From positions 620,001-684,000 of the forward strand of contig NZ_RSEB01000003.1 of NCBI RefSeq assembly GCF_003933745.1: a stretch of 64,000 bases of DNA. The letters are read 5' to 3'. This stretch comes from Glycomyces terrestris (lineage in GTDB: Bacteria > Actinomycetota > Actinomycetes > Mycobacteriales > Micromonosporaceae). Made by a program: the position numbers and the translations under genes. Every line of letters begins with the position of its first letter. Positions within the stretch are counted from its first letter, which is position 1. A model generated the notes under the pieces. That model saw only the letters and a program-made list of their open reading frames with translations. It ran no database searches and was not told the origin of the DNA. Of this stretch, positions 7,686-57,990 are shown piece after piece.

Positions 7686-8705
7686 TCAGGCCCGCGGGCG
7701 CGCCGTCGAGTCGCGCTCGATGAGCTCGGCGTCGACCGACAGCTCCTGGGGGTACTCGTCGTCCTCGACCAGGGCCGCCTCCAGGGCCTGCACGCCCATG
7801 TCGTGGAGCGGGAGCGCCACGGTCGTGAGCGACGGGGTGAGGTCGCGCACGATCGGGATGTCGTCGAACCCGGCCACCGACACCTGGTCGGGGATGCTCA
7901 CCCCGCCCTCGCGCAGGGCCGTGCACAGGCCCGTGGCCTGCACGTCGGAGGTCACGAACACCGCGGTCGGGAGCCGCTCGCCCTCGAGGAGCCGCCGCCC
8001 GGCCTGGTAGCCGCCGTCGCGGGTGAACTCGGCGGGGACGTGCACGACCTCGGCGTCCTCGGGCAGCGCCGACAGGAACCCCTCGCGCCGCTCGCGCACC
8101 ACCTGGAGCTGCTCGGGGCCGGCCACCACCGCGAACCGCCGGTGCCCCAGCTCGGACAGGAACCGCGCCAGCGCGGCCGCGCCCTCCCGGTTCGCGGGCC
8201 GCACGACCCGCCCCGGCAGGCCCGGCTGCCCCACCGACACCACGGTCGCGCCCAGTTCGAGCAGGTCCGAGAGGTGCTCGGAGAGCCGCTGCTCGGCGGC
8301 CGTGTCGGTGGTCCGCGACCCGGCCACGATGACCGCGCGCGGCCGGTAGCCGCGCAGCGAGTCGAGGTGCTGCACCTCGGAGTCGGGGTCGATGCCGGTG
8401 TCGGCGATGAGGACCCGCACGTTCCGGCGCGCGGCCTCGGCGAGCACGCCGCCCGCGATCTGCCCGAAGTACGGGTCGGTCACGTCGTGCAGGAGCAGGG
8501 CCACGGTCTGGGACGTCGCCCGCGCGAGCACCTGCGCGCCGACGTTCGGGGCGTACCGCAACCGGCGCGCCGCCTCGCGCACCCGCTCGCTCAGCTGGTC
8601 GCTCACCCGGTGCGGGGAGCCGTTGAGCACGCGGGAGGCGGTGGCCACCGAGACGCCGGCGGCTCGGGCGACATCGGCCAGTCGGGCCGGTTGTTTGCGT
8701 TCCAT
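7686..8705 (-). CDS. LacI-family transcriptional regulator
   Basis: 339 residues. The N-terminal HTH is canonical (ARLADVARAAGVSVATASRVLNG), followed by the hinge helix region and a periplasmic-binding-like effector domain with VALLLHDVTDPYFGQIAGGV, AVFVTSDVQATGLCTAL and VSVAGFDDIPIVRDLTPSLTTV. Such proteins usually repress sugar-utilisation genes, but no sugar genes adjoin it, so the ligand is unknown. The start at 8705 is supported by a TAGCCT -10 box 7 nt upstream, implying a leaderless mRNA. It lies 34 nt downstream of the HAD phosphatase gene. Confidence 0.9.
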   Translation of the reverse strand: MERKQPARLADVARAAGVSVATASRVLNGSPHRVSDQLSERVREAARRLRYAPNVGAQVLARATSQTVALLLHDVTDPYFGQIAGGVLAEAARRNVRVLIADTGIDPDSEVQHLDSLRGYRPRAVIVAGSRTTDTAAEQRLSEHLSDLLELGATVVSVGQPGLPGRVVRPANREGAAALARFLSELGHRRFAVVAGPEQLQVVRERREGFLSALPEDAEVVHVPAEFTRDGGYQAGRRLLEGERLPTAVFVTSDVQATGLCTALREGGVSIPDQVSVAGFDDIPIVRDLTPSLTTVALPLHDMGVQALEAALVEDDEYPQELSVDAELIERDSTARPRA

Positions 8706-11111: not shown

Positions 11112-11429
11112 CGACCGGACTGGTGTGCTCGGGCCGGTGGAGGTGGCCCGGGTCTGCGCGCGGGTCGTCGGGGGCTGATTCTAAGCTGCGCGGGCCCGGG
11201 GCCGGTCGCGGTTGCACTCCGGCGCTGTACTCGGCGAGCCTTCCGGCGAAGATCCTGGGCTGCGCTGGTGCAGCTCTCGTGGTGCCGGGCTTCGGGGCCA
11301 CGCGGGATCGCCGGCCCGGCCTCGCGGGATTGTCGGACCCCTCTGGCACCTTTGACAACCGGGGGCCCACCCCTGGGGCCTGCGCGGCTCGGACCCTGCC
11401 CTGTGGACGGCGGTTCTTACACTCGGTGC
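11112..11429. other. 318-nt non-coding stretch after radA
   Basis: No supportable gene. The right end carries the promoter of the Ser/Gly-rich protein. A TAAGCT hexamer at 11182-11187 could start a short non-coding transcript but has no other support. disA, the usual neighbour, is missing. Confidence 0.4.
11418..11423 (+). promoter_or_regulatory. -10 box (TACACT) of leaderless Ser/Gly-rich protein gene
   Basis: TANNNT hexamer 6 nt upstream of the ATG at 11430. Confidence 0.55.
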
Positions 11430-21382: not shown

Positions 21383-21419
21383 CTGAAGGGAGCTTCAGGC
21401 GGCTTCAGCTGGGCTTAAG
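21383..21419. repeat. cluster of CTTCAG-type direct and inverted repeats at the 3' end of the HMG-CoA lyase gene
   Basis: CTGAAG at 21383, CTTCAG at 21393 and 21403, CTTAAG at 21414: roughly one helical turn apart. The same hexamer at 11-bp spacing is the core of the 85-bp units at 51301-51555. Confidence 0.45.
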
Positions 21420-22332
21420 GCCGGGGTGTCAGGCTGGTTCTGGGTCCGGCGCGGAGGACCCCGGATTCGAGGGGCCGGCCGACGATCTCCTGCGCGAGTT
21501 CGGCGGTGCGGATGAGGGCGTCGAGGTCGACGCCGGTGTCGACGCCCATGTCGTGGAGCATGTGCACGACTTCCTCGGTGGCGACGTTGCCGGAGGCGCC
21601 GGGGGCGAAGGGGCAGCCGCCGATGCCGCCGACGCTGGCGTCGAACTCGGTGATGCCGCGGTCGAGCGCGGTGAGGAGGTTCGCGAGGGCGGTGCCGCGG
21701 GTGTCGTGGAAGTGCATGAGCATCGGCAGGTCGGGGCCGGCCGAGGGCTGGACGGCGTCGAGGAGTTCGGTGACGCGCCGGGGGGTGCCCATGCCGGTGG
21801 TGTCGCCGAAGGCCACGCGTCCGGCTCCGGCCTCCTGGGCGGCCTCGACGATGCGGGCGACCTTCGCGGGCGCGATGTCGCCTTCGAAGGGGCAGCCGAA
21901 GCTGGTGGCGATGATGACCTCGATCGCGGCGAGGCGCTCCTTGGCGAGCGCGCAGATGTCGGGGAGCTCGGCGAGGGATTCGGCGACGCTGCGGCCGATG
22001 TTGGCCTTGTTGTGGGTCTCGGAGGCGGAGACGACGACTTCGACGGCGGTGAAGCCGGCGTCGAGGGCGCGCTCGACGCCGCGGCGGTTGGGGGCGAGCG
22101 CGGAGTAACGGATGCCGGGGTGCTTCTCGACGGCGGCCCAGACCTCGGCGGCGTCGGCCATCTGCGGGACGGCCTTGGGGCTCACGAAGCTGACGGCTTC
22201 GATGCGGGAGAGGCCGGTGCGCGCGAGCGCGTCGATGAGGCGGATCTTGTCGGCGGCGGGCACGGGGGGCTCGTTCTGGAGCCCGTCGCGCGGGGCGACC
22301 TCTCTGAGCGAGACCCGTTCGGGCTGATGCAT
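21415..22332 (-). CDS. mvaB: hydroxymethylglutaryl-CoA lyase
   Basis: 305 residues, a full-length HMGL-type TIM barrel. Motifs are EVAPRDGLQNE at the N-terminus (metal- and acyl-binding Asp-Gly), GDTTGMGTP, HFHDTRG (metal ligands) and the catalytic loop GGIGGCPFAPGASGNVATEE with the active-site Cys. The enzyme cleaves HMG-CoA to acetoacetate and acetyl-CoA, the last step of leucine degradation. GGAG 6 nt before the ATG gives the start. Other leucine genes are not adjacent; the TetR gene upstream on the same strand may control it. Confidence 0.92.
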   Translation of the reverse strand: MHQPERVSLREVAPRDGLQNEPPVPAADKIRLIDALARTGLSRIEAVSFVSPKAVPQMADAAEVWAAVEKHPGIRYSALAPNRRGVERALDAGFTAVEVVVSASETHNKANIGRSVAESLAELPDICALAKERLAAIEVIIATSFGCPFEGDIAPAKVARIVEAAQEAGAGRVAFGDTTGMGTPRRVTELLDAVQPSAGPDLPMLMHFHDTRGTALANLLTALDRGITEFDASVGGIGGCPFAPGASGNVATEEVVHMLHDMGVDTGVDLDALIRTAELAQEIVGRPLESGVLRAGPRTSLTPRP

Positions 22333-22404: not shown

Positions 22405-22553
22405 GCGCCGCCCGGAGGGCGGGTGGGCGGGCTCCCCGTATTGCCATCCCGAACCCCCACCCTCCCTGGGGAAGAATAAGGTGCCATCCTCCCGCCCGGG
22501 TCCGACAGAAACGGCCCCCGAAGGCCCCGTTGTCGCCCAGACGAGTGAGCGGG
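22405..22553 (+). repeat. dispersed element, copy A
   Basis: The first 103 nt (22405-22507) are identical, in inverted orientation, to 28413-28515; about 45 more nt are partly conserved. Compared with copy C (56540-56640), 84 of 101 positions match without gaps, and 11 of the 17 changes fall in a 17-nt middle segment. It begins with a CCGCCC-GGA-GGGCGG hairpin; GACA and TGTC arms bracket a further small hairpin in the 3' part. It lies in the 397-nt gap between the HMG-CoA lyase and TetR genes. Confidence 0.75.
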
Positions 22554-22623
22554 AGGGGCGGGCCGGGAGGCGGCCGGATCGGGCGGCCAGGCCGCCGATT
22601 CAGGGAGCGGGTCGAGCCAGGGC

Positions 22624-22753
22624 GGCGGCGCGGAGCGGCCGAGCCGGGTCCGAGAGCGGGTCGGTCAGCCGGGGTCGAGGACTCTCAGGGCGGCGCGGAG
22701 CGGCCGAGCCGGGTCCGAGAGCGGGTCGGTCAGCCGGGGTCGAGGGCTCTCAA
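22624..22753. repeat. 65-bp tandem duplication covering the 3' end of the TetR gene
   Basis: Two nearly identical 65-nt units (22624-22688 and 22689-22753). The second contains the last codons of the TetR gene, so the first is a duplicated gene end plus flank. Confidence 0.7.
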
Positions 22754-23326
22754 GGCGGCGGCGCGGAGGAGGGCGGCGGTCTCGTCGGCGCTGACCTCCT
22801 GGCCGAGGGAGAGGTACGGCGTGGAGTTCATGAGGCCGAACGCGCCGTGCGCGAGCACGCGGGCCTGCTCCGGCTTGAGGCCGTCCCGCAGCCGGCACAG
22901 GACGCCCACCCACTCCTCGACGTAGACGCGCTGAAGCTTGCGCACCTGCCGCCGCGGCTCCTCGGGCAGCCGGTCGAGCTCGTGGAGGTGCAGGATGACG
23001 ATCTCGGGCGAGTCGATGACGACCTCCAAATGGAAGTCGACGAGCGCTTCGAGCGCGGCCTGCGGGTCCTCGGAGTGCACCGACGCCCAGTGGCGGCCGC
23101 CCGAGAGGAGGCGCTCGGAGACGGGGATGAGGGCGTCGGCGAGCATCTGCTCCTTGCCGCCCTTGAAATGGTGGTAGAGGGCCGGCCCGGTGATGGAGGC
23201 GGCCGCGCCGATGTCGTCCATCGAGACGCCGTGGTAGCCGTGCTTGGCCAGCAGCTTGACCGCGACGTCGAGGATCTCGCGGCGTCGCTTGGACCCGCCT
23301 CGTGCATCTGCCGTTTGCTTTTCCAC
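22730..23326 (-). CDS. TetR-family transcriptional regulator
   Basis: 198 residues. The N-terminal HTH is VSMDDIGAAASITGPALYHHFKGGKEQML; a helical ligand domain follows, with VDFHLEVVIDSPEIVILHLHELDRLPE. The overall shape resembles actinobacterial TetR proteins that respond to acyl-CoA thioesters, which would suit the HMG-CoA lyase gene downstream, but this is inference. The GTG start has TAACCT 7 nt upstream and no Shine-Dalgarno. Its last codons lie inside a 65-bp tandem duplication. Confidence 0.88.
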   Translation of the reverse strand: MEKQTADARGGSKRRREILDVAVKLLAKHGYHGVSMDDIGAAASITGPALYHHFKGGKEQMLADALIPVSERLLSGGRHWASVHSEDPQAALEALVDFHLEVVIDSPEIVILHLHELDRLPEEPRRQVRKLQRVYVEEWVGVLCRLRDGLKPEQARVLAHGAFGLMNSTPYLSLGQEVSADETAALLRAAALRALDPG

Positions 23327-23333
23327 TCAGATG

Positions 23334-23339
23334 AGGTTA
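23334..23339 (-). promoter_or_regulatory. -10 box (TAACCT) of leaderless tetR-family gene
   Basis: TANNNT hexamer 7 nt upstream of the GTG at 23326. Confidence 0.5.
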
Positions 23340-23530
23340 CTCGGGCGTACTCCCGCGAGCATGGAGCAAAAGCCCACTTTCCCGGGAGGCCACCGCCCCA
23401 GGACGCGACGGGGGTGTGCGGCAGCGGGGGCGCCCGGTCGGAGACGAACGCCCGCGGCGCACGGGTGCCGGCCCGGAGACGGGCGCACCGAGCGGCCGTC
23501 AGCAGCGGACCCGTCCCCCGGACGCGCTTC

Positions 23531-23560
23531 GGCCGCGTCCCCCGTGCACGGGACGCGGCC
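23531..23560 (-). terminator. hairpin downstream of the MscS-like gene
   Basis: Perfect 11-bp stem (GGCCGCGTCCC/GGGACGCGGCC), 8-nt loop, 57 nt past the stop. Confidence 0.6.
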
Positions 23561-23616
23561 GTTGCGGTCGAGCAGCGCGGGTCGGGAGACCGGACACATG
23601 GACTCCCGGCGTGACG

Positions 23617-24477
23617 CTAGCGTTCCGGTTCGATGCGGCCCTGGGTGCCCTCGCCCATCGCGCCGGTCTCCCCCATGGCGGGCGCGCCCGCCGCGGGCGC
23701 CCCGGTGGGCGGCATAGGCTCGCGGACCTGCGTGTTCGTCGCGGCGCCGTACCGCTCCGAGGTGTACGTCTGCGACATCGACGACGTCGCGTCCTTCGAG
23801 CGCGGCTCCTGCATGTTCTCCTTCATGCGCCCGGCCTCGGCCTCGGCGCCCGAGAGCATCCGCTCCCAGCGCTCGCGCATCGGCGAGACGAGCCCGCCGC
23901 CGACGCCCACGATCGTGACGCCCGCGATGATCGCGAGGACGGTCCACATGATCGGCGTCGTCACGGTGGTGGCGATGCCGACCTGCCCGAACGCGGCGAC
24001 CGCGCCGAAGAAGATGATCGCGACCTGGCAGATGCGCGCCACGGTCTTCCCGTAGTTGGTGTTCTCGAGCGTGCCCGAGACGATGTTGAACACCGCGTTC
24101 GCGATCGCGAAGGCGACCACGACGATGACGAGTGCGACGAACAGCATCGGCAGCCAGCCGACGATCTGGTTGAGCAGCGTCGACACCGGGTTGGTCCCGA
24201 ACGCCCCGAACGCGAGCTGCAACGTGAACAGCAGCAGCATGTAGTAGACGACCTTGCCGAGCAGGTCGCTCAGCTCGAACTTGCCGGTGTACCGGCGCAG
24301 CCCGGAGCGTTCGCCGACCCGGTCGAGGCCGACCTTGTTGAGCAGTTTCCCGACGAGGCGGCCGATCCACTTGGAGATGAACCAACCGATGACGAGAATG
24401 GCGAGGAATGCCAGCGCACGCGGCACGAACGCGACGACGCTGTCCATCATGTTCTGGAAGCTCTGCGTGAAGTTCAT
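23617..24477 (-). CDS. mechanosensitive-channel-type membrane protein (conserved TM-helix family)
   Basis: 286 residues. Five membrane helices start with ALAFLAILVIGWFISKWIGRLV, and the family's repeated G-rich helices follow (VGWLPMLFVALVIVVVAFAIANAV). The pattern matches the conserved TM-helix family related to MscS, without the MscS beta domain. The C-terminal 75 residues are hydrophilic and Met/Pro/Gly-rich (GAPAAGAPAMGETGAMGEG). The likely role is osmotic or membrane-tension response. TACGGT lies 6 nt before the ATG, so a leaderless mRNA is expected; an open frame extends upstream but only through low-complexity DNA. Confidence 0.8.
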   Translation of the reverse strand: MNFTQSFQNMMDSVVAFVPRALAFLAILVIGWFISKWIGRLVGKLLNKVGLDRVGERSGLRRYTGKFELSDLLGKVVYYMLLLFTLQLAFGAFGTNPVSTLLNQIVGWLPMLFVALVIVVVAFAIANAVFNIVSGTLENTNYGKTVARICQVAIIFFGAVAAFGQVGIATTVTTPIMWTVLAIIAGVTIVGVGGGLVSPMRERWERMLSGAEAEAGRMKENMQEPRSKDATSSMSQTYTSERYGAATNTQVREPMPPTGAPAAGAPAMGETGAMGEGTQGRIEPER

Positions 24478-24483
24478 ACCCCG

Positions 24484-24489
24484 ACCGTA
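24484..24489 (-). promoter_or_regulatory. -10 box (TACGGT) of leaderless MscS-like gene
   Basis: TANNNT hexamer 6 nt upstream of the ATG at 24477. Confidence 0.6.
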
Positions 24490-24579
24490 AGCCGGATAGC
24501 GGCCTTGTTCAGGCGATTCGCTCGATTGGCGGCCGACACTGGTGTAATAAGGCCGCGTTTCGCCCGGTCGGGGCCCGGT

Positions 24580-24745
24580 TTCTCGCCCAGGCCGGGTTTC
24601 CCGATGAGCCGGTCGCTGTCCCTCGCTGGGCCGGGTGCCCGGTTCGCCCGTGGGCCGACCGCGCTGATCCCTTACAGCCCGGGTGCCCGGTTCACCGTGA
24701 GTTTCCCGCTGGGCCGGTTGCCCGGTTCCCAGTGAGCCGGGCGCG
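24580..24745. repeat. degenerate short repeats containing GTGCCCGGTTC
   Basis: At least three imperfect units of 35-50 bp, each with GGGCCGG and GCCCGGTT blocks (about 24625, 24674 and 24708), fill most of the 296-nt gap between dcd and the MscS-like gene. No gene is present in the gap. Confidence 0.5.
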
Positions 24746-24773
24746 CAGGCCCGCCGCTGAGCCGCGCGGTCCC

Positions 24774-25349
24774 CTACGTGGGCCAGGTGCGCCAGTGCAT
24801 CCACGACTTCGAGGGCGTGGGGCCGCGCTGGTCCTGGTAGCGGGAGAAGTTCGCGCCCTGCCCGTACGGCTTCTCGGCGGGGCTGGAGAGCCCGAAGAGG
24901 CACAGCTGCCCGATCTTCATGCCCGGCCACAGCGTGATCGGCAGGTTCGCGACGTTGGAGAGCTCGAGCGTGACGTGCCCGGAGAAGCCCGGGTCGATGA
25001 ACCCGGCGGTGGAGTGGGTGAGCAGGCCGAGGCGGCCGAGGCTGGACTTGCCTTCGAGGCGCGCGGCGAGGTCGTCGGGGAGGGTGATGACCTCGAGCGT
25101 GGAGGCGAGCACGAACTCGCTCGGGTGGAGGACGAACGGCTCGTCGCCGCCGACCTCGACGGGCGAGGTGAGCTCGTCCTGCTGCTGGGAGGGGTCGATG
25201 TGGGTGTACTTCTGGTTGTTGAAGACCCGGAAGCGGCGGTCGAGGCGCACGTCGATGCTGGAGGGCTGCACGAGCTCCTCGTCGAACGGGTCGATGCCGA
25301 GCCGGCCCGACTTGACGGCGTCGAGGATGTCGCGATCGCTGAGCAGCAT
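24774..25349 (-). CDS. dcd: dCTP deaminase (possibly bifunctional, dUMP-forming)
   Basis: 191 residues, the full length of the family. Motifs are [47 protein letters not shown] (the catalytic Glu sits in TLELSN) and MKIGQLCLF. The trimeric enzyme converts dCTP to dUTP and, in actinobacteria, often directly to dUMP, feeding thymidylate synthesis. TAGCCT 6 nt before the ATG indicates a leaderless transcript. It follows the GT-C-like gene on the same strand with 32 nt between. Confidence 0.95.
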
Positions 25350-25355
25350 GCGCCC

Positions 25356-25361
25356 AGGCTA
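25356..25361 (-). promoter_or_regulatory. dcd: -10 box (TAGCCT) of leaderless dcd
   Basis: TANNNT hexamer 6 nt upstream of the ATG at 25349. Confidence 0.6.
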
Positions 25362-25381
25362 ACCGGCCTGGGCCGCGACCG

Positions 25382-27517
25382 TCACTCAGGCTCGGGGGGC
25401 ACGGCGTATGCCACTGTGCCGAGCTCGGTGTACTCCCAGCCGGGCGGCACGAGGTCGGCGCACTGGTCGAGGTCCTCGGCGCAGACGATGGCGTCCATGT
25501 CGGCGGGGTCGGCGCCGGGGCGACCGGGGACGACGGAGGCGAGGGGGTGGATGTCGGCGTCGGGCAGGAGGATCCACCACGGGTACTCCCACGAGTCGTT
25601 GCTCTGCACGAGGCCGACGTGCTCGGGTTCGACGGCGTTCACGGCAGCGGCGGCGGCCTCGTACTGGGGGAGCCATTCGAGGCGGCGCACGAACCGCTCC
25701 TCCATGTCGGTGAGGCTGAAGACCGACCAGGCGCCGGTGAGCCGCCGCGGGTAGCCGTACGCGACGGTGAGGAGCCCGGCGATCGAGGCGAGGACGGCGA
25801 CCGCGGAGATCACCGAGATCGCGGCGCGGCGGCGCCGCTTGTCGCGCGCGGAGGTGGCGATGCCCTTGACGAGCGCGGCCGCGAGGACCCCGGCGGCGGG
25901 GGCGCCGAGGACGACGAGGAAGACGACGAGCCGGTTGATCCACGGCTGCCAGGCGACGGTGCAGGCGACGGCGAGGAACGCGAACGCGAGCGCCCCGGCG
26001 TAGGCGCGGCGCAGCCCCGGGCCCTTGACCGCGAACCAGGCGAGGCCGGCGAGGGAGGCGAGGCCGGTGAGGGGGAACGCGGCCCGGTCCTCGTCGGGGT
26101 ACCAGGCGGGCACCGGGAACTCGGTGGTCATGAACGTGATCCGCGGGTCGTCCGGGTCGACGCCGAGGGCGTGCGCGAGGCCGTTGATCGCGGCGGCGGT
26201 GGCGTCGGAGAGGAAGAACAGCGGCGTGTCGAGCCCGGTGTGGGCGATGTGCAGGGCGTTGACGAGGAGCAGGCGCGGGTCGGCGGTCTGGACGCCGATG
26301 GAGTCGCGGAGCATGGGCGGGCCGAGGGGACTGCCGAACGCCTCCTGCATGCGGGCGAGGAAGGGCCCGGCGACGGCGAGCATGAGGGCGATGACGGCGA
26401 GCGAGGCGAGGACGGTGCGGCCGCGGGAGGCCCAGGCGCGGGAGGCGTCGGCGCGCGAGCAGCGGGCGGGGCTGCGTCCGCACAGGCAGGGGCGGCGGCG
26501 CTGGCCGTCGCGCACGAGCCGGCCGATGCCCCAGATGAGGAGGAGCGGGGCGGCGGCGAGGAGCCCGGTGGTCTTGGTGACGGCGATGAGGCCGAGGGCG
26601 AGCCCGAGGTAGAGGGCGTCGGTGCCGGGGGCGGCGGCGCGGAGCGCGGCGCCGTGGGCGTCGCCCGGGCGGGTGAACTCGTCGAGGACGACGGTGGCGA
26701 GGGCGGCGACCCAGGCGGCGTTCACGAGGTCGACCTGGGTGGAGGTGGCCTGGAGGAGGATCTCGGGGGTGGTGGCGAGGAGGAAGACGGTGGCGAGCTG
26801 GGCGAGGGGGCCGCCGCCGAGCTGGGCCGCGATGCGGGAGGCGGCGAGGAGCGCGCCGACGCCGGCGAGGTACTGGAGGAGGTTGTAGGCGCCGTCGCCG
26901 CCGGAGACGAGCCGGAGGTGGGTGAGGAGGTATTCGGCGCCGGGGCCGAGGTCGACCTGGCGGTGGATCTCGGTGGCGTAGACGGCGACGGAGGCGTGCT
27001 GGACCCAGTGCTCGATGCGCGGGAGGTGGTAGGTCAGGGAGTCGAAGTTGTTGGGGGAGGAGGCGACGGCGAGGACGGCGGCGCTGACGGCGAGGATCGC
27101 GATGACGCAGCCGAGGGCCCACTGCCAGGCGGGGGCCGCGGCGGCGGCGCTCTTGGTGCGCCTCCAGGTGCGGCGGGTGGCGCCGCGGCGGGAGCGCAGC
27201 TCCTCGCGGAGGACGTCGAGGGACTGGACGCGGAGCCCGTCGGGGTCGACGTCCTTGACGCACCTGACGACGACCGCGGCGGCGGTGGCGAGGGTCGCGC
27301 CGATCCAGGCGGCGACGACGGTGCCCGCGGTGAGCGCGGTGAACGCCGAGGCGGCCTCGACGACGGCGATCGCGAACGCGCCCAGCAGGATCGATGCGCG
27401 GATGAGGGCCAGGCGGGCGGGGGCGAGGACCGCCCCTTCGCGGGGCCGCAGGGCGTAGGCGAGCGCCGGGAGCAGGGCCAGGAGCCACAGGACGAGCAGC
27501 ACCGCTCTATTCAACAC
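25382..27517 (-). CDS. polytopic GT-C-fold glycosyltransferase-like membrane protein
   Basis: About 711 residues with a dozen or so membrane helices. The first large outward loop has the signature NNFDSLTYHLPRIEHWVQHASVAVYATEIHRQVDLGPGAEY, typical of lipid-linked-sugar-dependent GT-C enzymes (GT39/83-like). A Cys/Arg-rich cytosolic loop (CLCGRSPARCSRADASRAW) sits mid-protein, and the C-terminus is a soluble, likely exported domain. It would attach sugars from polyprenyl-phosphate donors at the outer membrane face. The divergent GT2 gene could make that donor. The GTG start used here leaves 53 nt for the divergent promoters; a TTG at 27568 is possible. Confidence 0.7.
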   Translation of the reverse strand: MLNRAVLLVLWLLALLPALAYALRPREGAVLAPARLALIRASILLGAFAIAVVEAASAFTALTAGTVVAAWIGATLATAAAVVVRCVKDVDPDGLRVQSLDVLREELRSRRGATRRTWRRTKSAAAAAPAWQWALGCVIAILAVSAAVLAVASSPNNFDSLTYHLPRIEHWVQHASVAVYATEIHRQVDLGPGAEYLLTHLRLVSGGDGAYNLLQYLAGVGALLAASRIAAQLGGGPLAQLATVFLLATTPEILLQATSTQVDLVNAAWVAALATVVLDEFTRPGDAHGAALRAAAPGTDALYLGLALGLIAVTKTTGLLAAAPLLLIWGIGRLVRDGQRRRPCLCGRSPARCSRADASRAWASRGRTVLASLAVIALMLAVAGPFLARMQEAFGSPLGPPMLRDSIGVQTADPRLLLVNALHIAHTGLDTPLFFLSDATAAAINGLAHALGVDPDDPRITFMTTEFPVPAWYPDEDRAAFPLTGLASLAGLAWFAVKGPGLRRAYAGALAFAFLAVACTVAWQPWINRLVVFLVVLGAPAAGVLAAALVKGIATSARDKRRRRAAISVISAVAVLASIAGLLTVAYGYPRRLTGAWSVFSLTDMEERFVRRLEWLPQYEAAAAAVNAVEPEHVGLVQSNDSWEYPWWILLPDADIHPLASVVPGRPGADPADMDAIVCAEDLDQCADLVPPGWEYTELGTVAYAVPPEPE

Positions 27518-27570
27518 GACCCGGTCCGGCGGGCGGCGCTGCGGAGGGCTCGCGTTATGGTTATCCAATC

Positions 27571-28311
27571 GTGTTCGAACGCGCGGGGATGGAGCAGCGG
27601 ATGCTGTTGTCGGTACTCGTCCCGGTATTCAATGAGGAACGCCTCGCAGCTGGGACGTTGAAAGAGCTGCTCGCGGTGGACTTCCCCGGTGAGACGGAGA
27701 TCGTCGTGGTCGACGACGGCTCGCGGGACCGGTCCTGGGAGGTCCTTCAATCCTTTGAGGACAATGCGCGGATCCGGCTGATCCGCCACGACCGCAACCG
27801 CGGCAAGGGCGCCGCGATCCGCACCGCCGCGAAGGCCGCCAACGGGGACCACATCGTGGTCTTCGACGCCGACGGCGAGTACGACGCCGCCGACCTCCCC
27901 CGCCTGCTCGTGCCGGTCATGGAGGGCAAGGCCGAGGTCGTGTACGGTTCGCGGTCGTTCGGCTCCCACTCGGCCTATTCGTTCTGGTACGTGATGGGCA
28001 ACAAGGGGATCACGCTTGCCGCGAACATCCTGTTCAACTCGTACATCTCCGACCTCGAGACCTGCTACAAGCTGCTGCCGCGCCAGATGTACCTCGACCT
28101 GAACATCCGCTCGGGCGGGTTCGGGATGGAGGCCGAGCTGACGGCGAAGCTCCTCAAGATGGGCGTGCGGCCCTACGAGGTGCCGATCTCGTACACCGCG
28201 CGCAGCCGCGAGGAGGGCAAGAAGATCACCTGGACCGACGGCGTCCAGGCCCTCTGGCTCCTCGGCCGCGAACGCGTGCGCCGCTCCCGCCGCCCCGCGA
28301 TCGGCCGCTAG
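27571..28311 (+). CDS. GT2 glycosyltransferase, dolichol-phosphate-mannose-synthase-like
   Basis: 246 residues (from GTG 27571; an ATG at 27589 is an alternative). The GT-A fold shows LSVLVPVFNEE, VVVDDGSRDRSWEVL, GKGAAIRTAAKAANGDHIVVFDADGEYD (the metal-binding DxD-like motif) and FGMEAELTAKLLKMG. Such enzymes transfer a sugar from a nucleotide donor to polyprenyl phosphate. No C-terminal membrane helices are present, so it is cytosolic or peripheral. TATGGT lies 9 nt before the GTG. Its divergent partner is the GT-C-like gene, a logical user of the lipid-linked sugar. Confidence 0.85.
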   Translation: MFERAGMEQRMLLSVLVPVFNEERLAAGTLKELLAVDFPGETEIVVVDDGSRDRSWEVLQSFEDNARIRLIRHDRNRGKGAAIRTAAKAANGDHIVVFDADGEYDAADLPRLLVPVMEGKAEVVYGSRSFGSHSAYSFWYVMGNKGITLAANILFNSYISDLETCYKLLPRQMYLDLNIRSGGFGMEAELTAKLLKMGVRPYEVPISYTARSREEGKKITWTDGVQALWLLGRERVRRSRRPAIGR

Positions 28312-28366
28312 GCCGAACCGGCCGCACCACCGCCGCGCTCGGCGGCGAACCGGCGGGGCACTCGCC

Positions 28367-28515
28367 TCCGCTCGCCTGATCGGGTGACAAGTGGGCATTC
28401 GGGGGCCGTTCTTGTCGGACCCGGGCGGGAGGATGGCACCTTATTCTTCCCCAGGGAGGGTGGGGGTTCGGGATGGCAATACGGGGAGCCCGCCCACCCG
28501 CCCTCCGGGCGGCGC
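28367..28515 (-). repeat. dispersed element, copy B
   Basis: Inverted relative to copy A and identical to it over 103 nt (28413-28515). It fills the gap between the converging GT2 and lutC genes and begins 5 nt beyond the lutC stop, so it would be transcribed as the lutABC 3' end. Confidence 0.75.
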
Positions 28516-28519
28516 GGGT

Positions 28520-29158
28520 TCAGTCCAGGATCACCACGTCGAGCCGGCGCGGGCCGTGGACGCCCTCGACGCGCTGGAGCTCGATGTCGCTCGTCGCCGA
28601 CGGGCCCGAGATCCAGGTCTGCGGGGCCCTCGGGTCCAGGTGCGGCAGCGCCTCGGCGAGGTGGCCCCAGATCTGGTCCCGGCGCACCACCACCACATGG
28701 TGGTCGGGCACGAGCGTGAGCGCGCGCCGGCCCTGGACCTCGCCCGCGTCGAGCATGATCGTCCCCGAGACCGCCACGGCCGCAGCGCAACCGGTGAGCA
28801 CGGCGTCGACCCCGTCGAGCTCCTCGACCGTCAGCCCGCGGTCCTCCACGAATTCCGCGCCGCCGCGCCGCCACTCGGCCGGCAGGTCCGCCGGGACCGC
28901 CACCCGCCGCGCGCCCGCGAGGGCGTCCTCGATCGCGGCCGCGCCGCGGTGCACGTTCGCCTTGTAGTCCACGAGCCGGTCCACGAGCATCGCCACGACG
29001 TCGGTCCCGGCGTCGAGGGCCCGCCGGTACTCGCGCGGCACCGCCGGCGCGGGCGAGGCGCCCTCCAGCGCGGTGCGCATCCTCGCCAGGATCTCGTCGC
29101 GGGCGCTGCCCGGCCCTCCGCCCGGGGCGCCGGCCGGTCCGCTGCGCCGTGCGCTCAT
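28520..29158 (-). CDS. lutC: lactate utilisation protein LutC (LUD domain)
   Basis: 212 residues. An N-terminal helical part (RDEILARMRTALEG) is followed by the LUD domain: VDAVLTGCAAAVAVSGTIMLDAGEVQGRRALTLVPDHHVVVVRRDQIWGHLAEALP and a C-terminal WISGPSATSDIELQRVEGVHGPRRLDVVIL. LutC is the third subunit of the LutABC L-lactate dehydrogenase complex, which oxidises L-lactate to pyruvate with iron-sulfur electron transfer. The ATG overlaps the lutB stop (ATGA), showing translational coupling. Confidence 0.92.
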   Translation of the reverse strand: MSARRSGPAGAPGGGPGSARDEILARMRTALEGASPAPAVPREYRRALDAGTDVVAMLVDRLVDYKANVHRGAAAIEDALAGARRVAVPADLPAEWRRGGAEFVEDRGLTVEELDGVDAVLTGCAAAVAVSGTIMLDAGEVQGRRALTLVPDHHVVVVRRDQIWGHLAEALPHLDPRAPQTWISGPSATSDIELQRVEGVHGPRRLDVVILD

Positions 29159-54929: not shown

Positions 54930-56348
54930 TCAGAGGATGCCGGCGGGCCGGTAGGCGGCCGCCTCGGGGTGCGCTTTCGCCGCTTCGGCCACCCTTTCGG
55001 CGACACGGTCGACCTGATCGCCTGCGGCGCCGGTGAATTCACCCGTATTCGCGACGAGCGCGTCGAGGCCGGCGCGGTCGAGGGGCAGGCGGGGGTCGGC
55101 GGCGAGGCGGTCGAAGAGGTCGTTGCCGCGCTGGCCCTCCTCGCGCATGGCGCGGGCGACGGCGACGGCGTGCTCCTTGATGGCCTCGTGGGCGTCTTCG
55201 CGGCCGGCGCCCTGCTTGACGGCCTCCATGAGGACCTTTGTGGACGTCAGGAAGGGGAGGTAGCGGTCGAGTTCGGCGCCGATGACGGCCGGGTAGGCCC
55301 CGAAGTTGTCGAGAATCGTGAGGAATGTCTCATAGAGGCCGTCGACGGCGTAGAAGAGGTCGGGGAGGGCGACGCGGCGGACCACCGAGCAGGAGACGTC
55401 GCCTTCGTTCCACTGGTCGCCGGCGAGCTCGCCGAGCATGGAGGCGTAGCCGCGGGCGACGACGGCGAGGCCGTTCACGCGCTCGGAGGAGCGGGTGTTC
55501 ATCTTGTGCGGCATGGCGGAGGAGCCGACCTGGCCGGGCATGAAGCCCTCGGTGGCGAGCTCGGCGCCGGCCATGAGGCGGATGGTGAGCGCGGCCGAGG
55601 AGGGCGCGGCGACGGCTTGGACGAGGGCGGTGCCGACCTCGTAGTCGAGGGAGCGCGGGTAGACCTGGCCGACGGAGTCCATGACGCGCTCGAAGCCGAG
55701 GTGGCCGGCGATGCGGCGCTCGAGTTCGGCGAGCTTGGCGGTGTCGCCGTCGAAGAGGTCGAGCATGTCCTGGGCGGTGCCGACCGGGCCCTTGATGCCG
55801 CGGAGGGGGTAGCGGCGCAGGAGGTCCTCGATGCGGTCGTGGGCGGCGAGGAGCTCCTCGGCCCAGGTCGCGAAACGCTTGCCGAGGGTGGTGGCCTGGG
55901 CGGGGACGTTGTGGCTGCGGCCGGCCATGACGAGGTCGCGGTACTGCTCGGCGCGGGCGGCGAGGCGCACGAGGGCGGCGACGATGCGGTCGCGGACGAG
56001 TTCGAGGGACTGGCGGACCTGCATCTGCTCGACGTTCTCGGTGAGGTCGCGGCTGGTCATGCCCTTGTGGATGTGCTGGTGGCCGGCGAGGTCGGAGAAC
56101 TCCTCGATGCGGGCCTTGACGTCGTGCTTGGTGACGCGCTCGCGCTCGGCGATCGAGGCGAGGTCGACCTGGTCGAGGACGCGCTCGTAGGCGGCGACGA
56201 CGCCGTCGGGGACGGTGACGCCCAGGTCGTGCTGCGCTTGGAGCACGGCGAGCCAGAGCCGCCGCTCGGCCTTGATCTTGCCGACGGGGTCCCAGATGTT
56301 GCGCATAGGGGCGGAGGCATAACGCTCGGCGAGCACATTCGCAGTCAC
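54930..56348 (-). CDS. purB: adenylosuccinate lyase
   Basis: 472 residues. It has the fumarase-superfamily signature GQVGSSAMPHKMNTRSSE and the lyase regions HQHIHKGMTSRDLTEN and AGRSHNVPAQATTLGKRF. The enzyme releases fumarate from SAICAR and from adenylosuccinate, so it acts twice in purine synthesis. The start is a GTG with no clear Shine-Dalgarno. A 32-bp perfect palindrome lies 12 nt upstream and probably controls it. Confidence 0.95.
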   Translation of the reverse strand: MTANVLAERYASAPMRNIWDPVGKIKAERRLWLAVLQAQHDLGVTVPDGVVAAYERVLDQVDLASIAERERVTKHDVKARIEEFSDLAGHQHIHKGMTSRDLTENVEQMQVRQSLELVRDRIVAALVRLAARAEQYRDLVMAGRSHNVPAQATTLGKRFATWAEELLAAHDRIEDLLRRYPLRGIKGPVGTAQDMLDLFDGDTAKLAELERRIAGHLGFERVMDSVGQVYPRSLDYEVGTALVQAVAAPSSAALTIRLMAGAELATEGFMPGQVGSSAMPHKMNTRSSERVNGLAVVARGYASMLGELAGDQWNEGDVSCSVVRRVALPDLFYAVDGLYETFLTILDNFGAYPAVIGAELDRYLPFLTSTKVLMEAVKQGAGREDAHEAIKEHAVAVARAMREEGQRGNDLFDRLAADPRLPLDRAGLDALVANTGEFTGAAGDQVDRVAERVAEAAKAHPEAAAYRPAGIL

Positions 56349-56360
56349 GGGGCAATGATG

Positions 56361-56392
56361 ACACCGTCTGTACAGGCCTGTACAGACGGTGT
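56361..56392. promoter_or_regulatory. 32-bp perfect palindrome upstream of purB
   Basis: Left arm ACACCGTCTGTACAGG, right arm its exact complement, no mismatch. Inside are two CTGTACAG palindromes. It is a candidate operator, or a 14-bp stem with a GGCC loop in the purB leader. Confidence 0.65.
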
Positions 56393-56539: not shown

Positions 56540-56685
56540 CCGCCCGGAGGGCGGGTGGATGGGGTAGGAGGTGTTCCATCCCGAACCCCCACCCACCCCG
56601 GGGAAGTATGAGGTGCGATCCTCCCGCGCGGGTCCGACAGGAACATGCCCTCGCGAGGCCCGTGTCCCCCGAAGAGGGGATCGCC
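56540..56685 (+). repeat. dispersed element, copy C
   Basis: The 101-nt core 56540-56640 aligns with copy A (22408-22508) without gaps. 17 differences, 11 of them in the 17-nt middle (56559-56575). The ends, the CCGCCC-GGA-GGGCGG hairpin and the CCATCCCGAACCCCCACCC block are unchanged. It lies in the 421-nt divergent gap between purB and purD. Confidence 0.7.
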
Positions 56686-56769: not shown

Positions 56770-57990
56770 GTGCGAGTACTCCTGATCGGCTCCGGCGGCC
56801 GCGAGCACGCCCTCGCGGCGGCCCTGGCCGCGGACGAATCCGTCACCAAGCTCATCTGCGCTCCGGGGAACCCCGGCATGGCCGCGCTCGGCGAGTGCGT
56901 GCCGGTGAACCAGACCGACCCCGCCGCGGTGGCCTCCCTGGCCGTGACCTCCGCCGCCGACCTCGTGATCGTGGGCCCGGAGGCCCCGCTCGTGGCCGGC
57001 GTCGCGGACGCGGTCCGGGCGAAGGGCATCCCCGTGTACGGTCCCGGCGGCGAGGCCGCCCGGATCGAGGGGTCGAAGGCGTTCGCGAAGGAGGTCATGG
57101 CCGCCGCGGGCGTGCCGACCGCCGCCGCGCGCGTCTGCCGCACCCGCGAGGAGGCCGAGGCCGCGCTCGACGAGTTCGGCGCGCCCTACGTCGTCAAGGA
57201 CGACGGCCTCGCCGCCGGCAAGGGCGTCGTCGTCACCGAGGACCGCGAGCAGGCGCTCGCGCACGCGCTCGACTGCGAGCGCGTGGTCATCGAGGAGTAC
57301 CTCGACGGGCCCGAGGTCTCCCTGTTCGTGATCGCCGACGGCACCAGCGCGAAGCCGATGCTGCCCGCGCAGGACTTCAAGCGCATCGGCGAGGGCGGGA
57401 CCGGCCCGAACACCGGCGGGATGGGCGCGTACACGCCGCTGCCGTGGGCCCCGGACGACCTGGTCGCCGAGGTCATGGAGCGCGTCGCGAAGCCGACCCT
57501 GGCCGAGCTGGCCGGGCGCGGCATCCCGTTCGTCGGGACCCTGTACTGCGGTCTCGCGCTGACCTCGAAGGGCCTCAAGGTCGTCGAGTTCAACGCGCGC
57601 TTCGGCGACCCGGAGATCCAGGCGGTGCTGGCGCTGCTGGAGACGCCGCTCGGGCAGCTGCTGTACGCGGCCGCGACCGGCAAGCTCGCCGACTTCGGCT
57701 CGCTGTGGTGGCGCGAGGGCGCGGCCGTGTGCGTCGTGGTCGCGAACGAGGGCTACCCGGGCACGCCGGTCACCGGCCGCCCGCTGTACGGCGCCGACGC
57801 CGAGGGCGTCCTCCACGCCGGCACGGCCCTCGACGCCTCCGGCCAGCTGATCGCCACCGGCGGCCGGGTCCTCGGCTGCGTGGGCACCGGCAAGTCCGTC
57901 GCCCAGGCCCGCCAGGAGGCGTACGCGATCACCGAGGGCATCAAGCTCGAAGGCGGCTACTTCCGCCGCGACATCGCCGCGAACATCTAG
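56770..57990 (+). CDS. purD: phosphoribosylamine-glycine ligase (GAR synthetase)
   Basis: 406 residues. It starts VLLIGSGGREHALAAAL, has GPEAPLVAGVADA, the ATP-grasp KDDGLAAGKGVVVT and EEYLDGPEVSLF, and the GD-E metal region VVEFNARFGDPEIQAVLALL. It joins glycine to phosphoribosylamine, step two of purine synthesis. It has a GTG start with a leaderless promoter. A perfect terminator follows. purC, often near, is absent. Confidence 0.97.
   Translation: MRVLLIGSGGREHALAAALAADESVTKLICAPGNPGMAALGECVPVNQTDPAAVASLAVTSAADLVIVGPEAPLVAGVADAVRAKGIPVYGPGGEAARIEGSKAFAKEVMAAAGVPTAAARVCRTREEAEAALDEFGAPYVVKDDGLAAGKGVVVTEDREQALAHALDCERVVIEEYLDGPEVSLFVIADGTSAKPMLPAQDFKRIGEGGTGPNTGGMGAYTPLPWAPDDLVAEVMERVAKPTLAELAGRGIPFVGTLYCGLALTSKGLKVVEFNARFGDPEIQAVLALLETPLGQLLYAAATGKLADFGSLWWREGAAVCVVVANEGYPGTPVTGRPLYGADAEGVLHAGTALDASGQLIATGGRVLGCVGTGKSVAQARQEAYAITEGIKLEGGYFRRDIAANI

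Follow-up and report, generated by a model that had tools for sequence, protein, structure and literature searches.

We describe a dispersed non-coding element in a 64,000-nt window of the Glycomyces terrestris genome (assembly GCF_003933745.1, contig NZ_RSEB01000003.1, positions 620,001–684,000). The element is about 95–145 bp long, is present in multiple copies and lies mostly between genes. It combines a near-invariant 22-bp core, with one C-rich and one G-rich strand, a GGGG a few bases further on, and lineage-specific boxes held at rigid spacing. It is present or absent at the same junction between species, yet is kept at some orthologous sites. From its sequence we tentatively favor, at a little short of an even chance, the reading that this is a mobile cis element in which a lineage-specific stress-type promoter would fire into the invariant G-rich segment.

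Three copies lie in the window. Positions 22405–22507 are the reverse complement of 28413–28515 over 103 nt, and the identity ends exactly there on both sides. A diverged third copy, placed without gaps from 56540, matches at 83 of 100 compared positions, with 11 of its 17 mismatches inside one 17-nt block. These comparisons bear out a sequence-only reading of the window, which had reported two perfect inverted copies and a third with 84 of 101 matches, all intergenic and all with GACA...TGTC arms; each of the three copies has GACA-N23-TGTC and falls between predicted genes. The dispersed element noted there is real and is part of something larger. Homology extends ~40 nt beyond the 3′ limit first given, and a covariance model matches at 22443–22547, 28373–28477 and 56575–56679. 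The features of the three copies are as follows.

22405..22547, plus strand: element copy 1, long variant, between the HMGL-like gene (21415–22332, minus) and the TetR gene (22730–23326, minus)
22405..22442, plus strand: 5′ extension of the long variant, a GC hairpin and G-rich stretch not present in the short variant
22444..22465, plus strand: 22-nt core CCRTCCCNANCCCCCACCCNCC of copy 1, its complement G-rich
22484..22508, minus strand: promoter-like motif YTGTCG.ACCC-N6-nAnnnT of copy 1, reading toward the core and then the HMGL-like gene
22504..22534, no strand: GACA-N23-TGTC arms of copy 1
28373..28515, minus strand: element copy 2, long variant, between the GT gene (27589–28311, plus) and the LUD gene (28520–29080, minus)
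28455..28476, minus strand: core of copy 2
28412..28436, plus strand: TTGTCGGACCC-N6-GAGGAT motif of copy 2
28386..28416, no strand: GACA-N23-TGTC arms of copy 2
56540..56679, plus strand: element copy 3, between the adenylosuccinate-lyase-like gene (54930–56306, minus) and purD (56770–57990, plus)
56576..56597, plus strand: core of copy 3
56616..56640, minus strand: CTGTCGGACCC-N6-GAGGAT motif of copy 3
56636..56666, no strand: GACA-N23-TGTC arms of copy 3

The genome (5.24 Mb, 15 contigs) holds further copies. Whole-genome blastn at E<1e-4 returned 10 places, namely the three window copies (E 2.8e-48 for both perfect copies, 1.3e-23 for the third) and seven others. A covariance model built from 27 of 35 copies, with 8 diverged ones left out, found 22 copies at E<0.01, of which 17 have the strict core and five do not (L098, L101, L103, L106 and L107; loci and genomes are given by our handles, L and G). 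Other Glycomyces genomes contain 0–46 covariance-model copies each, and a degenerate pattern places the element in 19 of 22 Glycomyces genomes (none in G001, G003 or G020). The dispersal claimed from the window thus holds for the genome and extends to most of the Glycomyces genomes searched.

Read in a copy's own direction, the element consists of an optional 5′ extension (GCGCCGCCC...GGGCGGGTGGG, the GC hairpin of the sequence-only reading), the core CCRTCCCNANCCCCCACCCNCC, a GGGG that follows within a few bases, sequence of variable length or letters and GGGTMCGACA-N23-TGTCACCCGAACGAGTG. Most fixed core positions in the Glycomyces set follow from the search pattern itself. A better measure of how far the core is conserved comes from a mismatch-tolerant search. 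With up to 3 mismatches allowed, five other genomes gave 91 places, 40 with 0 mismatches, 33 with 1, 12 with 2 and 6 with 3; 73 of the 91 therefore have 0 or 1 mismatch in the 20 fixed core positions, and a reversed control gave 7 places. In the 115 gapless Glycomyces cores, position 9 is A in 115/115, position 7 is C in 112 and position 22 is C in 114, while position 8 is nearly free. The GACA/TGTC arms are found in 94 of 117 core-found Glycomyces copies, and their spacing is exactly 23 nt in 84 of the 94, the 23 bases themselves being variable.

Closely similar pairs within single genomes delimit the unit. Nine pairs more than 88% identical within G017, G013 and G011 start 0–8 nt before CC[AG]TCCC and end 94–103 nt after it, near TGTCACCCG(A). 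A pair from G006 and that of the window, both of the long variant, are bounded differently, and the window identity stops at GACA; in this comparison the two perfect window copies were merged into one, their keys being identical. The near-constant boundaries indicate that the moving unit of the short variant is ~95–110 bp and has no terminal inverted repeats, the pair ends CC[AG]TCCC ... TGTCACCCG not being inverted copies of each other.

The core is widely scattered and rare. A scan of one genome per species gave at least 115 stretches with the exact core pattern. The 80 listed matches come from Glycomyces, Streptomyces, Paractinoplanes, Actinokineospora, Gaiella, Thermoleophilia, Holosporales, Planctomycetota, Chloroflexi, Patescibacteria and unclassified metagenome-assembled genomes (MAGs), representing at least five named phyla, partly through MAGs. 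All 23 of 23 such genomes have the core pattern, 1–52 times each, and the reversed control gave 0 in all 23. The core is multi-copy in Holosporales, Patescibacteria, Planctomycetota, Chloroflexi, Thermoleophilia, Streptomyces and Paractinoplanes genomes, with 52 copies in 0.8 Mb in Holosporales G061. It occurs in 2 of 396 genomes of a phylum sample (own included). Within the family, 33 of 354 genomes carry it, as do 3 of 44 genera, although the two single matches in genus g4 are comparable to the reversed control, which gave 3. Of 67 genomes in another genus of this family, 12 have 1–16 copies and 55 have none. Contamination from a single source is no explanation, since the flanks beyond the core and GGGG differ between lineages. 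A viral or phage-borne origin was rejected on finding 0 exact cores in IMG/VR viral contigs.

Some loci show repeats around or of the core. Two genomes of the Paractinoplanes genus have the core itself in a four-fold tandem array of 25-bp period (L376 ~8230–8330, G514; L377 8216–8315, G536). In the Holosporales MAG JAIRNI01 (L131, L140, L113), several ~200-bp tandem units GGGGATTCTCGCAC... follow one core and, by eye, carry CtrA-type boxes and a terminator-like hairpin. In Streptomyces-type loci L117, L143, L196 and L197 the core sits between copies of the repeat CAGCCCGTCCGGCGTTTGAGGACGAG; these repeat strings were not found printed in the literature searched. In Patescibacteria L236 a second AAGGGGCAGGGT, itself without a core, lies ~120 nt downstream of one core.

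Comparison of orthologous junctions shows insertion polymorphism between species. The HMGL-like, TetR, mscS, dcd, 25382–27502, GT and LUD genes (mscS and dcd being the names given in the sequence-only reading, without re-annotation) have the same order and orientation in G010, G013, G016 and G008, where no core occurs in the 12.5–12.8 kb fetched. With gene order conserved, the inversion of the TetR-mscS-dcd-GT block that had been suggested as possible is not seen. The junction of copy 1 lacks a core in these four relatives, and the TetR-HMGL distance is 59–66 bp in G010 and G013 versus 397 here. The junction of copy 2 lacks a core in all four and in G019; the LUD-GT distance is 208 bp here and 24 bp in G010, the genes overlap in G013 and G019, and G008 and G016 have a longer junction, likewise lacking a core. 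Most simply, both perfect copies would be gains in this lineage. A copy also follows the LUD gene in G004 and G021, so that 3 of the 21 genomes with that gene, own included, have one there. Some copies are old, since they are held at orthologous positions across species (L091/L032, L107/L033, L031/L048 and L099/L046, and also beside purD-type genes); copies related to copy 3 adjoin homologous genes in other Glycomyces. By eye, the TetR gene 3′ end and downstream sequence are tandemly duplicated at ~22625–22750 (GACCCCGGCTGACCGACCCGCTCTCGG... twice), a duplication not seen in the G010, G013 and G008 stretches. Also by eye, a perfect 32-bp palindrome (ACACCGTCTGTACAGG/CCTGTACAGACGGTGT, 56361–56392), possibly an operator, lies between the adenylosuccinate-lyase-like gene and copy 3.

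These data bear on the idea of an insertion resembling a miniature inverted-repeat transposable element (MITE), with the core and TGTC arms as sites for a transposase or recombinase acting in trans and the promoter likeness incidental. Presence and absence at the same junctions, near-constant unit boundaries, the rigid GACA-N23-TGTC and the patchy occurrence in the other family genus all fit it. Against it stand the missing terminal inverted repeats, the zero count in IMG/VR and the want of a resolved target duplication: at the copy-free junctions the flanks are too diverged for one to be read, the nearest LUD genes being at most 90% identical. No recurrent transposase was seen among the neighbors scanned, and Y1 transposase and reverse transcriptase are absent from the own genome. 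We take this possibility seriously while judging it unlikely overall.

The search for a mobilizing enzyme covered Y1 (RAYT) transposase, reverse transcriptase and neighboring genes. PF01797 (Y1) was not found in the own genome, nor in 6 of 10 element-bearing Glycomyces tested, own included. It is absent from carriers G000, G002, G004, G011, G013, G017, G061, G062, G063, G068 and G073, and present in carriers G006, G008, G012, G015, G065, G070, G071, G074 and G079 as well as in non-carriers G001 and G003. RVT_1 (reverse transcriptase) was found in none of the 8 element-bearing Glycomyces tested, nor in G062, G063, G071, G073 or G079; it is present in carriers G061, G065, G068, G070 and G074 and in non-carriers G001 and G003. 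RAYT and reverse transcriptase are thus unlikely movers in Glycomyces, and a repetitive extragenic palindromic (REP)/RAYT system was rejected because the own genome has no Y1 transposase. Of the REP/MITE-like suggestion made earlier, the repetition and the presence or absence at one junction between species stand; terminal inverted repeats and a Y1/RAYT enzyme are missing here. A Pfam scan of 110 of the 144 neighboring genes (34 left out) found no family with more than 3 members, and neighbors of low-copy and array loci (10 proteins each) showed no recurrent transposase. All-against-all blastp of 505 neighbors, with the top 15 clusters viewed, gave a largest cluster of 19 proteins from 16 loci; each of the other top clusters (4–7 proteins) looks by eye like a single locus shared by several species.

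The sequence-only reading had considered a structured RNA, in which a GACA/TGTC hairpin would be conserved; this idea fared poorly. No Rfam family was found on the window at gathering cut-offs, and when six loci were searched by E-value no element was matched. Covariation analysis of 88 gapless Glycomyces copies, the check that had been suggested, revealed no nested Watson-Crick helix that covaries, with only isolated pairs of excess z 3.6 and 2.8; changes that ignore the predicted pairs were one of the two things which that reading had together named as refuting it. Hairpin energies of 49 of 78 unique copies were barely below those of shuffles (mean z −0.38 whole and −0.45 inner, flank control −0.02), and RNAalifold on both strands and per lineage found little structure. 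One orthologous pair, L099/L046, does show a compensatory change in a perfect hairpin. On the strength of these Rfam, RNAalifold, shuffling and covariation results we rejected a structured RNA for Glycomyces, and consider the idea almost certainly wrong.

The boxes have the layout of a promoter. YGTC-N12-nAnnnT directed toward the core is found in 116 of 117 Glycomyces copies and in the opposite direction in 1 of 117. Shuffling would lead one to expect 2.3 such copies (mononucleotide) or 2.2 (dinucleotide). The logo toward the core is YTGTCG(G/T/C)ACCC-N6-[GAC]A-N3-T-N-G, in which the A and T of the −10-like box are 100% conserved (n=115). Such spacing matches the mycobacterial RecA-independent promoter consensus tTGTCRgtg-8 nt-TannnT given in PMC5656591; according to PMC11804915 these promoters are served by PafBC, which is activated by single-stranded DNA. 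In the 494 kb of Glycomyces loci fetched around elements, TTGTCGKACCC occurs 44 times in elements (two of these being diverged copies first classed by the script as elsewhere) and twice elsewhere, and both of the latter precede genes for AlkZ-like glycosylases (alkZ; Pfam was run on the own orthologue). One more lies in the window at 11330, outside any element. The same loci contain six strict TTGTCR-N11-TAnnnT sites, two before alkZ, one before an impB/mucB/samB-family gene, one before a peroxiredoxin gene and two with no clear gene. The rigid spacings (84 of 94 arms at 23 nt; TGTC/AnnnT geometry in 116 of 117) support the protein-bound site suggested earlier, and rigid spacing with variable letters fits proteins on DNA better than a structured RNA.

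Other lineages have boxes of their own. A second, leftward TAnnnT just past GGGG is found in 94 of 117 Glycomyces copies (13.6 expected), 21 of 22 in the Paractinoplanes set (2.8) and 12 of 17 in the Gaiella/Thermoleophilia/unclassified set (1.4). This count used 22 of 28 Paractinoplanes-set and 8 of 9 G065 copies, the rest having no GGG, and the lineage sets include loci without displayed titles (L202, L204, L209, L213, L219 and L223). In the Paractinoplanes set, TT[GA]TCCACA is present in 22 of 28 copies and TGTCAAG in 18, the two lying 20–21 nt apart in 15 of 19 paired cases. We class the former as DnaA-type, and other boxes described here as CtrA-type, by the general box consensuses of those proteins. 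The Gaiella/Thermoleophilia set shows, by eye, direct repeats of the type CGGCAC/CGTCAC before TAnnnT.

Transcription from copy 1 would run into the HMGL-like gene, and from copy 3 into the adenylosuccinate-lyase-like gene. Driving neighbor genes is unlikely as a general purpose, since gene orientations show no clear preference: the 67 Glycomyces copies flanked by genes on both sides comprise 22 convergent, 15 divergent and 30 co-directional cases (20 against and 10 with the copy), and 43 non-Glycomyces copies comprise 10, 6 and 27, with 4 more inside predicted genes and 66 near locus ends.

Several observations, that lack of orientation preference among them, weigh against a mobile element with its own stress-type promoter. 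No copy has T at the first position of the −10-like box (0/115), and the strict consensus TTGTCR-N11-TAnnnT has no occurrence in the window; such a promoter may be weak, or the spacing may serve a different protein. The copies share descent, and the counts measure how well the sequence is conserved rather than how often it arose independently. Planctomycetota (0/13), G062 (0/10) and G065 (0/8) have no leftward TAnnnT, and its presence in Patescibacteria (11/11) is near chance (7.7 expected). No mobilizing enzyme was found among the neighbors scanned or as Y1 or RVT_1 in the own genome, and copy 2, given the copies after the LUD gene in G004 and G021, may be an old one lost elsewhere. In addition, AT-rich lineages have promoter-like sequence in the opposite direction, and 15 of 34 G062 places read CCATCCA, which breaks a G-run.

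The opposite direction raises the possibility of a multi-copy small RNA made from the C-rich core (5′ CCAUCCCNAACCCCC...) and acting by pairing or as a protein decoy. TGnTAnnnT stands just before the core in all 10 G062 and all 20 G061 Holosporales copies, and a CtrA-type TTAA-N7-TTAA lies upstream of it in 9 and 20 of these, respectively; TTGnnn-N16-TnTAAT-N5 precedes the core in 6 of 11 Patescibacteria copies; and a terminator-like hairpin is seen by eye downstream in G061. Planctomycetota copies, however, show by eye no upstream conservation, and neither conserved RNA structure in Glycomyces nor an Rfam match was found. We regard such an RNA as quite unlikely.

The broken G-run bears on quadruplex potential. 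A quadruplex (G4) pattern is present in 111 of 117 Glycomyces copies, which largely follows from the core pattern by which these copies were collected. Since CCATCCA breaks a run in the G062 places, the core must also be read by sequence, and a plain quadruplex reading is weakened. The broken run also weighs against the proposal of a recombination hotspot like that of Neisseria pilE, with gene conversion between copies. PMC3547852 describes an RNA on the C-rich strand at the pilE G4 locus, and the polarity of the RNA predicted here agrees with that model. A9, however, lies outside the G-runs and is invariant (115/115), and no variable-gene family was seen among the neighbors scanned. A hotspot of this kind therefore seems very unlikely.

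Our preferred model, a mobile element whose promoter is aimed at its own core, would work as follows. The lineage-specific boxes would form a regulated promoter directed at the core. Those of Glycomyces share their layout and an 11-mer with PafBC promoters, which respond to DNA damage independently of RecA; those of the Paractinoplanes genus combine a −10 of the form TAnnnT with CTTGACA and a box of DnaA type; and a set of Gaiella/Thermoleophilia/unclassified actinobacterial loci pairs a TAnnnT −10 with direct repeats. Transcription would cross the core with the C-rich strand as template, so that the early part of the RNA would read GGGNGGGUGGGGGUUNGGGAYGG. The exposed G-rich strand, or the G-rich RNA, may then alternate between folding into a quadruplex and pairing with the CCCC next to it. 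The likeliest function would be damage-triggered opening of the site, for the element's own copying or for a host reaction there.

The element is apparently mobile and fits none of the families tested, namely REP/RAYT, retroelements, Rfam RNAs and MITEs with terminal inverted repeats; the literature searched, though not exhaustively, holds no description of it. A bolder version, which we consider speculative and unlikely, is an undescribed class of mobile DNA with a 22-bp G4-capable core across at least five named phyla, wired in each lineage to that lineage's own stress or cell-cycle promoter, opened by transcription upon damage or replication, and copied by a machine recognizing the core. 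The wiring would be of PafBC type in Glycomyces, through DnaA-type boxes in the Paractinoplanes genus and through CtrA-type boxes in Holosporales. That a 22-bp non-coding sequence is kept almost unchanged, and in many copies, by bacteria as unrelated as AT-rich symbionts and GC-rich soil actinomycetes implies that they share a machine recognizing it, and with 19 of 22 Glycomyces genomes and 12 of 67 of the other family genus as carriers the gene for this machine should be findable by comparison. If the damage-promoter reading is true, mobility or recombination would be tied to the PafBC response, and the element would give bacteria other than Neisseria a case, open to testing, of G-rich DNA gated by transcription.

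Among known systems, REP/RAYT elements are likewise short, dispersed and intergenic, but the present element has rigid boxes in place of the REP palindrome and no Y1 transposase in this genome. MITEs share its shortness, non-coding nature and presence or absence at the same junction between species; the element differs in having no terminal inverted repeats and in a core conserved across phyla. The GGGNATC quadruplex repeats of Xanthomonas and Nostoc are also G-rich, dispersed and mostly non-coding but are simple 7-nt repeats (PMC4692102), in contrast to one non-repetitive core with fixed partner boxes. The pilE G4-associated small RNA locus (PMC3547852) has the polarity predicted here and is a locus for pilin variation, whereas the element has 1–52 dispersed copies per carrier genome examined and a fixed 22-bp core, with a broken G-run in some copies. 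The actinobacterial PafBC RecA-NDp/P1 promoters (PMC5656591 and PMC11804915) share the TTGTC-type box, the 8 nt and nAnnnT, and two alkZ-type promoters of Glycomyces have the same 11-mer as the element; in the element the first −10 base is never T, and the boxes lie in a repeat rather than before repair genes and aim at the core.

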